A stretch of 37,233 bases of DNA from assembly GCA_027034975.1 (NCBI GenBank), contig JALVWQ010000036.1, positions 1-37,233 on the forward strand, in the 5' to 3' direction. A program made the translations under genes and the position numbers. The stretch is from Campylobacteraceae bacterium (GTDB lineage: Bacteria; Campylobacterota; Campylobacteria; Campylobacterales; Sulfurovaceae). Below are positions 4,730 to 36,314 of this stretch, one piece after another. Position 1 is the first letter of the stretch. Every line of letters starts with the position of its first letter. Under the pieces are notes generated by a model that was not told where the DNA came from, did not search any database, and was given only the letters and a program-made list of their open reading frames with translations.

Positions 4730-4980
4730 TTGCGTACTATTCACCCTAAAAGTTTCAATTGCAAAATAGGGTTAGAGTGCGTAAGATTGTACTGGAGATT
4801 TAAAAGCTGACATTCAAGCAGAGCGTCAAATATCTAGTATTAAGTTGCACGCAATTCACCCTAAAAGTTTCAATTACCAAATAGGGTTAGAGTGCGTAAG
4901 ATTGTGCTGGAGATTTAAAAGCTGTACTTAAAGTACAGCGTTAAATATCCAGTGCAAGGTTGCGTGCTATAACCCTATTC
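4730..4980. repeat. 115-bp tandem repeat, two full units and a partial third, behind purB
   Basis: Unit 1 is 4730-4844, unit 2 is 4845-4959, and the start of a third (4960-4980) runs into the purB stop codon. Near-identical cores include TTCACCCTAAAAGTTTCAAT, AATAGGGTTAGAGTGCGTAA and CTGGAGATTTAAAAGCTG. Each unit folds as two hairpins. The first pairs TTGCGTAC..ACCCTA with TAGGGT..AGTGCGTAA. The second pairs CTGGAGATTT with AAATATC(C/T)AG around an inner stem; in unit 2 the inner stem is perfect (GCTGTACT at 4921-4928 with AGTACAGC at 4932-4939). Several differences between units keep pairing, for example G-U replaced by G-C. The remainder of the 4477-4974 gap (4507-4729) is plain AT-rich sequence with no gene that I can see. 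Confidence 0.8.
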
Positions 4981-6303
4981 AAAGACTCTTTTGAAGATTG
5001 CGTCTACATTTTTTGTATAATACTCATAATCAAAACAAGCCCTAATCTGCTCTTCGCTCAGTTTCTCTCGAAGCTCTTTATCTTCAAGGAGATATTGCAA
5101 GAAGAGGCTCTCCCCTTTTTCGTTTGTTGTTGCTTTTCCTTGTTGGATCTCCTCCCACACCTTCATTGCGTTTCGCTGTACTATTTTATAAGCATCTTCA
5201 CGGCTTACGCCTGCTTTTGGTAACTCTAAGAGTACTCTTTGTGAGAAGACTAACCCACCTGTGAGGTTCAGGTTTTTCATCATATTCTCTGGCATAACTG
5301 TCAATTTAGAGATTACACCATTCATTCTATGGAGCATAAAATCGCTTGTAATAAATGAGTCTGGAAGCCAGAATCGCTCTGTTGATGAGTGACTAATATC
5401 TCTCTCGTGCCAAAGAGCTACATTCTCCATAGCTGGGATTACATAAGCACGAATCATTCGTGCAAGCCCTGTAATGTTCTCTGTTAATATTGGGTTTCTC
5501 TTGTGTGGCATTGCAGAGGAACCCTTTTGCCCTTTTGCAAAAAACTCCTCTGCTTCGTAAACCTCTGTTCTTTGGAGATGTCTTACTTGTACAGCAAACT
5601 TCTCGATTGATGATGCTAAGAGTGCTAGTGCTGAAGCGAGTCTTGCGTATCTATCTCTATGCACTACTTGGTTCGATACCGGCTCTGGTTTGAGACCAAG
5701 CTCTTGCATCGCTAACTCTTCGAGCTCTAGTGGTGCGTGTGCAAAGTTCCCCATCGCTCCGCTTATTTGCCCAACTGAGATTACTTCTAGTGTCTCTTCG
5801 AGGTTTTTAAGGTGGCGTTTGAGTTCATCATACCATACTGCAAGTGTTAAGCCAAAGGTAATTGGTTCCCCGTGAATCCCATGGCTTCTACCAACCATAA
5901 GCGTATATTTGTGCTCATAGGCTCTCTTTTTTACCGACTCCATAAGCATCTTAACATCGTCGATAATAATATTTAGAGAGTCTCGCATCTGTAGTGCCAC
6001 TCCTGTATCAACTGCATCTGAGCTTGTCATACCGTAGTGGAACCATCTACTCTCTTCGCCTAAAGACTCTGCAACGCTTGTATTGAAAGCTATAAGATCG
6101 TGCTTTGTCTTTGCCTCTATCTCCTCAATTCGCTCTACTGAGAATTTTGCATTCTTAACAATTTTTTCGCAATCCTCATCTGGAATTAAACCTAATTTAT
6201 TCCACGCTTTTACAGCTGCTTTTTCTACCTCTAACCAAGCTGCATACCTTGCCTCTTGTGTCCAGAGTTTTGCCATCTCATCTCGTGCGTATCGCTCTAC
6301 CAT
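4975..6303 (-). CDS. purB: Adenylosuccinate lyase
   Basis: A 442-aa protein, normal length for the short bacterial PurB type. It splits succinylaminoimidazole carboxamide ribotide and adenylosuccinate, releasing fumarate, in purine synthesis. Seen: the fumarase/aspartase signature GSSAMPHKRNP at 261-271 with the catalytic serine, the TSSDAVDT loop at 93-100 and the catalytic histidine region GRSHGIHGEP at 138-147. The C-terminal helices (DAYKIVQRNAMKVWEE) also fit. It appears to stand alone: the RluA-type gene diverges upstream, and downstream lies the 115-bp tandem repeat, whose third partial copy includes the TAG stop. A structured 3' UTR on the purB transcript is therefore likely. Confidence 0.97.
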   Translation of the reverse strand: MVERYARDEMAKLWTQEARYAAWLEVEKAAVKAWNKLGLIPDEDCEKIVKNAKFSVERIEEIEAKTKHDLIAFNTSVAESLGEESRWFHYGMTSSDAVDTGVALQMRDSLNIIIDDVKMLMESVKKRAYEHKYTLMVGRSHGIHGEPITFGLTLAVWYDELKRHLKNLEETLEVISVGQISGAMGNFAHAPLELEELAMQELGLKPEPVSNQVVHRDRYARLASALALLASSIEKFAVQVRHLQRTEVYEAEEFFAKGQKGSSAMPHKRNPILTENITGLARMIRAYVIPAMENVALWHERDISHSSTERFWLPDSFITSDFMLHRMNGVISKLTVMPENMMKNLNLTGGLVFSQRVLLELPKAGVSREDAYKIVQRNAMKVWEEIQQGKATTNEKGESLFLQYLLEDKELREKLSEEQIRACFDYEYYTKNVDAIFKRVFE

Positions 6304-20695: not shown

Positions 20696-20716
20696 AAAGT
20701 TCCTCCAAGGAACTTT
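20696..20716. terminator. Hairpin terminator between convergent genes
   Basis: AAAGTTCC (20696-20703) pairs perfectly with GGAACTTT (20709-20716) around TCCAA. Short T-rich tails occur on both sides (TTTCTATACTGTTT forward, CTTTTCTAC reverse), so it can serve the glycosyltransferase gene and the acidic hypothetical gene. Confidence 0.6.
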
Positions 20717-20735
20717 CTATACTGTTTAAAGAAGC

Positions 20736-21410
20736 TTAATTCTTCTCAAAATCATCGACATAGCAGTCGGTGCCTATTATTCGCTCTCCTCCAACTTCTA
20801 ATCGTGTTAGCATATAAGTTTCCGACTCTTTATCAAAGCGTGCACTATAGAGGGCATCTACTATAACATTGGCATCAAAATAGGCACTGTCCTCTTCTAG
20901 GAAAGCATCTTTTACATCCATACTATCGATATCAATTGTGTCGCAGAAGCTTTCAATTATATCCTCTGTAATTATATTATCAAGCACCTCGGTACACTCT
21001 ATGTATCCCAACTCTATACTCTCATTATCAACTGTTTCACTATTGGTTTCGAAGGTAAATTCGCCATCGCCTACTCTTCGTAAAAGATAGAAGAGATCAC
21101 CCTCTTCTATGGAATTGAGCAACTCGCTCAACTCCCCTAATTTACGATTTTTGAGTCTAAAGTCATCAATTCCAAAACTCTCACTCCCTATCGATACCTT
21201 TAGAGAGTCAGCATAGAGTAGTCGCAGTTGCATAATCGCAGAGAGAGACTCAATTTCATTGCTATCTATTCTCTCTTTCAGAGCTTCATAAAGCTCCTCT
21301 TGCCCCTTTTTCGACGCCATATTGAAACTTGTGAGATCAAAGCCCAAATCTTCTCGTAAATTATAGAAAGCTACGAATTCACCTCGTCCCTCTATAACTA
21401 TCTGTGCCAT
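20736..21410 (-). CDS. Acidic soluble hypothetical protein
   Basis: 224 aa, strongly acidic (many Glu/Asp, few Arg), with no signal peptide and no membrane segment. I recognise no family. Visible features: a GRGEFVAFYN start, an alternating pattern of strands and short helices, the acidic runs TEVLDNIITEDIIESF and DTIDIDSMDVKDAFLEED, and a late LTRLEVGGERIIGTDCYVDD. The composition fits a cytoplasmic protein, perhaps a binding or immunity-type protein, but this is only a guess from charge. It stands alone with its own TATAAT (21442-21447, reverse strand) and AAAGGAA site. It should be treated as a real but uncharacterised gene. Confidence 0.65.
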   Translation of the reverse strand: MAQIVIEGRGEFVAFYNLREDLGFDLTSFNMASKKGQEELYEALKERIDSNEIESLSAIMQLRLLYADSLKVSIGSESFGIDDFRLKNRKLGELSELLNSIEEGDLFYLLRRVGDGEFTFETNSETVDNESIELGYIECTEVLDNIITEDIIESFCDTIDIDSMDVKDAFLEEDSAYFDANVIVDALYSARFDKESETYMLTRLEVGGERIIGTDCYVDDFEKN

Positions 21411-21611: not shown

Positions 21612-21720
21612 CTAAAGGTACTATAGAGTATCATGTTCTCAATTCAAGCAGCAAGAAAAAACTCTATCTCTCCCAAAGATAGATCTGAATTATTTTTATA
21701 TTGTCAACTCAAAAGATTTA

Positions 21721-21885
21721 ACCCAAATTTTGCATTAGAATTAGCAAAGATTTGGCAAATGCTTTATTTTGGGGTGTTTGCAAAAATCTTGAGGTTAACT
21801 CGAAGGTTAATTGATAGATTTTTGTAAATACCCTAAGCTAAATGATTTACTAAAGGTTGCTAATCTCTAATACAAAATTTGGGTT
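21721..21885. mobile_element. 165-bp long-hairpin inverted-repeat element (MITE-like), full form
   Basis: The left end ACCCAAATTTTGCATTAGA matches the reverse complement of the right end (ACCCAAATTTTGTATTAGA). The symmetry continues inward: AGCAAAGATTTGGCAAAT opposes AGCAACCTTTAGTAAAT, and GGGTGTTTGCAAAAATCT opposes GGGTATTTACAAAAATCT. The tip TTAACT-CGAA-GGTTAA closes the fold. The whole element is thus one long imperfect hairpin without a coding gene. A shortened, inverted relative lies at 36249-36314. The pattern fits a non-autonomous element moved in trans or a hairpin-forming intergenic repeat; no target duplication is obvious. A 64-codon frame crossing it is probably chance. Confidence 0.75.
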
Positions 21886-21900
21886 TAATACAACTACAAA

Positions 21901-22224
21901 TTAAGAGGATTGTGAACTTAAGTGCAATCCAACGACACCAGCAATAATAAAGAGAATACTGACAAGCTTTAGAAGAGATAACTCCTCTTTAAAGAGGAAG
22001 AGTCCAATTATAGTAATGAGTGCTGTCCCAATACCTGCCCAGATCGCATATGCTATACTCATCTCTATCTTTTTAAGAGCCATCGTTAATGCAGCTAGCG
22101 AGAGGATATAAAAGAGCAACATCGCTACAGATGGAACAATTTTACTAAACCCCTCTGATAGCTTCATAGATGTTGTGCCCAAAACCTCAAAAAGAATTGC
22201 TAAAGCTAAATAGAACCAGTACAT
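21901..22224 (-). CDS. Small multidrug resistance (SMR) family transporter
   Basis: 107 aa with four membrane helices. The essential membrane glutamate lies in the first helix (LAILFEVLGTTSMKLSEGF), and SIAYAIWAGIGTALITIIG and the third-helix to fourth-helix region FKEELSLLKLVSILFIIAGVVGL are standard SMR blocks. Known members are proton-coupled dimers exporting quaternary amines, guanidinium or polyamines. The KLSEGF and AYAIWAG features resemble the EmrE/QacE side, but the substrate is not decidable. AAGGAG inside the end of the phosphatase gene serves as ribosome site, 2 bases after that stop, so the two form a unit. Confidence 0.93.
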   Translation of the reverse strand: MYWFYLALAILFEVLGTTSMKLSEGFSKIVPSVAMLLFYILSLAALTMALKKIEMSIAYAIWAGIGTALITIIGLFLFKEELSLLKLVSILFIIAGVVGLHLSSQSS

Positions 22225-36222: not shown

Positions 36223-36248
36223 TTCTATTTTAGTAATAAAATTTCAAT

Positions 36249-36314
36249 CCAAGTTTTGCATTAGAGATTAACAACCTTTAGCAAATCTTTACTAATTCTA
36301 TTGCAAAATTTGGG
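36249..36314. mobile_element. 66-bp inverted-repeat element, deletion form of the 21721 element
   Basis: CCAAGTTTTGCATTAGA at the left is mirrored by TCTATTGCAAAATTTGG at the right. Compared in inverse orientation with 21721-21885, the left 38 bases match its right end and the right 33 bases match its left end; about 100 internal bases are missing, with the junction in the shared AAATC. It lies between the convergent DUF2207 and SdrD-like genes. Confidence 0.7.

Follow-up and report, generated by a model that had tools for sequence, protein, structure and literature searches.

The window, the whole 37,233-nucleotide stretch of DNA that was analysed, carries at positions 21722-21883 a 162-bp element that we assign with strong confidence to a palindromic MITE with IS1380-type ends. 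We consider it probable that this element is non-autonomous and moved in trans, and that the fold of its plus strand aids its multiplication. The novel aspect is the strand-specific, covarying body, which is strongly supported as a pattern; the mechanism proposed for it below is drawn from sequence comparison. Bacterial MITEs are usually regarded as passive remnants whose ends define them. The body described here appears to be under strand-specific structural selection that fades after landing, so whether a MITE's own folded strand aids its jumping becomes a testable question.

Identification and borders of the element

Positions 21701-21905 have a folding energy of -74.3 kcal/mol; 200 shuffles average -34.1 (z -9.85), and none of them folds as well. 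This bears out the preliminary description, which reported a stretch folding back almost wholly on itself up to a CGAA tip; the predicted fold places that tip at 21801-21804 (plus strand). The surrounding 490-bp gap that it reported also holds, and lies between ORFs at 20736-21410 and 21901-22224, both on the minus strand. The second ORF is predicted to encode an SMR-type small multidrug resistance protein (Pfam PF00893, E 4e-29). An Rfam search of the element gave no gathering-level match, and sub-threshold matches to miRNA hairpins were rejected as chance.

The element had been placed at 21721-21885 (165 bp). The hairpin stands, and its exact limits are corrected here. The orthologous locus of the congener G001 lacks the element: the window up to 21721 and from 21884 aligns to it, with a single TTTAA between. 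This empty site, together with copy comparison, defines a mobile element of 162 bp (21722-21883, CCC...GGG, no coding gene, plus strand the better folding) and a 5-bp target duplication, TTTAA, at 21717-21721 and 21884-21888 (plus strand). The flanking A and T of the earlier borders therefore belong to the duplication. The left terminal inverted repeat, CCCAAATTTTGCATTAGA, spans 21722-21739 (plus strand), and its core has matches in the genome. The right repeat at 21866-21883 (minus strand) is its complement with few mismatches. The hexamer TAGAAT at 21736-21741 (plus strand) may be a -10-like sequence pointing inward.

The home genome is a 1.77 Mb draft from which copies were collected stretch by stretch. 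It holds about 24 near-full-length copies with 74-91% identity to the window element, plus many shorter ones. The terminal motif ACCCAAATTTTGCA, with at most one mismatch, occurs 66 times in this genome and its reversed control not at all, and 23 of 60 relatives have matches to the element. Its presence differs between the window genome and G001; in the reciprocal case, G001 has a copy adjoining a site that lacks one in the window (about 20708-20725). The 5-bp flanks are identical in 18 of the 24 home-genome copies (shuffled mean 6.2, maximum 13 in 2000 shuffles), and perfect duplications include TTGAA, TTTAT, TTAAT, and ATAAA. Flank agreement in these 24 copies at 4, 6, or other lengths shows no excess like that at 5 bp. 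Further copies from other genera have a perfect 5-bp duplication in 27 of 40 cases (shuffled mean 5.4, maximum 14). At three loci (L006, L017, and L025) copies are inserted right against the end of another copy, with a TTAAA-like junction common to both, as if the target duplication itself were a preferred target.

The window element is short, multi-copy, bounded by terminal inverted repeats, and lacks a transposase gene, as a MITE does. The preliminary description had offered a MITE or a processed structured repeat, and had proposed a genome-wide copy count and a comparison of empty sites. The many dispersed copies, the perfect empty site, and the significant 5-bp target duplications support a MITE. 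The two options are compatible, since the body of this MITE also shows the evolution of a structured RNA or ssDNA.

Relationship to IS1380

The IS1380 family (ISEcp1/ISEc9, PF13701 transposase) resembles the element in having CCC ends and a 5-bp AT-rich duplication; unlike its members, the MITE has no transposase gene, is 162 bp long, and has a fully palindromic body. Terminal repeats are common to the MITE and two decayed IS1380 elements, with which the left repeat of the window element agrees. One is in genome G103 (locus L204), which also hosts the MITE; here the ends CCCAGATTTTGCAATAGAG and CCCAAATTTTTCATTAGAT surround an IS1380 transposase remnant and are nearly identical to the MITE ends of that genome (17 of 18 bases by inspection). 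The other, in G032 (locus L189), has the left end CCCAAATTTTGCAATCA. An intact IS1380 in G297, a genome of the same class, occurs in near-identical copies with CCCAAATCCGTAAATAG ends (CCC) and 5-bp duplications. The duplication size of 5 bp, found for both this IS1380 and the MITE, fits the 4-5 bp published for the family (PMC12116815). IS1380 and the MITE co-occur beyond expectation in 298 genomes of the class (Fisher p 0.003). The MITE family is widespread in Campylobacterales and ties IS1380 to MITEs, a link for which we found no report in the literature searched.

The home genome has no PF13701 match even at E 1, where assembly loss is possible because the genome is a draft. The transposase is also absent from most genomes carrying the MITE. 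A transposase in the same genome is usual for MITEs and is not required for all of them; the parent may be gone. For seven isolated end matches, stretches of 4-5 kb were collected (L097-L103). One of these is a 163-bp copy, and L103, which was read for ORFs, has no transposase. Because this draft yielded no IS1380 gene, mobilisation in trans is a proposal. An IS1380-family transposase would cut at the CCC/GGG ends and insert the element at TTWAA-like sites.

One locus (L321 in G188) has the same hairpin with different ends (CCCAAATCTCGAAATAGA) and the duplication AAAAC, resembling the G297 IS1380 ends. Judging by these sequences, the hairpin body may have changed transposase.

A strand-specific fold conserved across genera

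Across many genera of Campylobacterales the copies remain 162-168 bp long and fold into a hairpin of about 50-72 pairs, although their interiors have diverged to about 40-60% identity; the median identity of representatives is 56%. When copies were oriented by sequence alone, the plus strand folded better in 87 of 87 (mean -77.6 versus -50.4) and in all 40 further copies, giving 127 of 127 mutually related copies, which are not 127 independent events. The plus strand folds better because the mismatches are G-U on this strand and A-C on the minus strand. G-U is counted 655 times and A-C 165 times. The preference also holds in 127 of 127 with DNA parameters, and RNA parameters widen the energy gap. 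TAGAAT is found at the plus end in 72 of the 127 copies and at the minus end in three.

We compared the copies with 200 neutral simulations starting from a palindromic consensus. Paired cells reach 88% in the copies versus 64 ± 3% (maximum 72%) in the simulations, and compensatory pairs number 38 versus 19.5 ± 3.2. In an independent count using 26 representatives, both sides have changed in 31 of 40 pairs versus 20 in shuffles, and none of 500 shuffles reaches any of five covariation measures. The simulation and shuffle tests both point to covariation supporting one secondary structure.

ERIC, Correia, and Yersinia palindromic MITEs are also gene-less, mostly intergenic elements of 100-170 bp with an RNA hairpin (see the review PMC10969869). 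They differ in their terminal repeats and in their duplication, which here is 5 bp and TTWAA-like; for the present family, strand-specific covariation across genera is demonstrated.

Selection on the fold and its possible role

Ancestral states were assigned by simple parsimony on a fast tree. The ratio of G-U to A-C outcomes is 51:16 on ancestral branches (p 2e-5); on terminal branches it is 77:57 overall and 20:15 for home-genome copies. Double compensations are more frequent on ancestral branches (39/152 versus 26/261, p 4e-5), and inserted home-genome copies shed pairs at a near-neutral rate. This contrast between ancestral and terminal branches indicates that the fold is kept in the spreading lineage and decays after landing; the hairpin structure seems to serve propagation and not each host site. 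Transcription-associated mutation was considered as a source of the G-U excess, and the transition counts on terminal branches do not support it.

From the strand-specific fold, the selection on ancestral branches, the TAGAAT hexamer, and the lack of a clear orientation bias, we infer a self-made folded plus strand that aids propagation. The molecule that acts would be this strand in its folded state, in all likelihood as a short transcript begun at the left end, and it would contribute to some step in the multiplication of the element; the hairpin would not be maintained as a service to each host site. The pattern points to a possible importance of a folded RNA (or single DNA strand) for the spread of the element. 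More tentatively, the family may be an IS1380-type MITE whose mobility depends on its own RNA (or ssDNA), a hairpin of about 162 nt that is selected only in spreading copies; as part of this joint claim, which we hold at somewhat below even, the hairpin would be conserved by structure and not by sequence across one bacterial order.

The strand asymmetry is also present with DNA parameters, so ssDNA is possible as the folded form. We regard it as unlikely, however, that selection acts on a single DNA strand that folds during transposition or replication and is recognised by its structure like an integron attC site. Selection acting in the spreading lineage would fit such a strand, as does the preference of all 127 copies with DNA parameters, but the target duplications and IS1380-type ends suggest ordinary double-strand DDE transposition, and the energy gap is greater with RNA parameters.

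A host-serving structured RNA spread by transposition is a quite unlikely explanation of the hairpin, be it for 3' end processing, mRNA stability, termination, or as an RNase III site. A comparable host role has been proposed for ERIC and Correia elements, and the copies are mostly intergenic and often close behind stop codons (the window copy has its right target duplication 12 bp from the SMR stop). Good folding is nevertheless confined to one strand, and yet their orientation relative to neighbouring genes is near random, with no clear bias; pairs are lost almost neutrally in the home-genome copies, and the presence of the element differs between congeners.

A plain MITE, with the palindrome a functionless relic of inverted duplication of IS ends that template-switch correction keeps near-palindromic, is improbable and already disfavoured. 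Inserted copies do drift almost freely and short derivatives exist, but the copies retain much more pairing than is left in neutral simulations begun from a palindromic root. Correction would be expected to bring back Watson-Crick pairs, whereas one-strand G-U pairs persist at many positions, and transitions on terminal branches have no strong strand bias able to create them.

Variants, in-frame copies, and other repeats

Several copies of the family that we interpret as a MITE propagated with the aid of its folded plus strand are apex-less versions of 67 and 93 bp, some with target duplications. These derivatives indicate that insertion does not strictly depend on a complete hairpin. The window contains a 67-bp member consisting of the two ends only (36248-36314, minus strand), with flanks TTCAA and TCCAA that match at 4 of 5 positions; it adjoins a gene with an SdrD B-like domain.

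A GC-richer 163-bp subfamily occurs in frame inside ORFs. With the 5-bp duplication, the insertion is 168 nt and adds 56 codons to genes such as nadD. In-frame copies are found in a NadD-like adenylyltransferase (L113, 5301-6029, minus strand), where a C-terminal SSSEIRE motif follows the insertion, in a DUF4153 protein (L170), in a patatin-like protein (L107), and in another ORF (L348). Clear mid-gene copies are seen only in the 163-bp class, which has the frame-keeping length. One 165-bp copy precedes a ThyX domain, and the true start codon of this gene may be further in. The few in-frame 163-bp relatives recall Rickettsia palindromic elements (RPE), hairpins of about 150 bp found in frame in protein genes; the hosts differ, most copies of the present family are intergenic, and the window copy is outside genes.

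Versions of 188 bp and 242-245 bp (L021, L024, L110, and L120) have an additional structured module inserted at the tip of the hairpin (e.g., GTGCAAGTGTGGGTTCCCTTCGGTCACGAGG), which in part resembles the motif GTACAAGTGTGCGACGCAAGG of Chitinophagaceae elements whose ends are the same. Elements that combine these ends and 5-bp duplications with other interiors are found in MAGs assigned to Bacteroidota, Calditrichota, and others; covariance-model matches in other phyla are weak, and examples with other interiors were left out of the covariation analysis.

The window also contains, at 4730-4979, two tandem 115-nt units (83% alike) accompanied by a third, inverted partner; the ends are AATAGGGTTA and TAACCCTATT. 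This repeat is directly downstream of a 442-aa ORF (4975-6303, minus strand) and is possibly another palindromic repeat.
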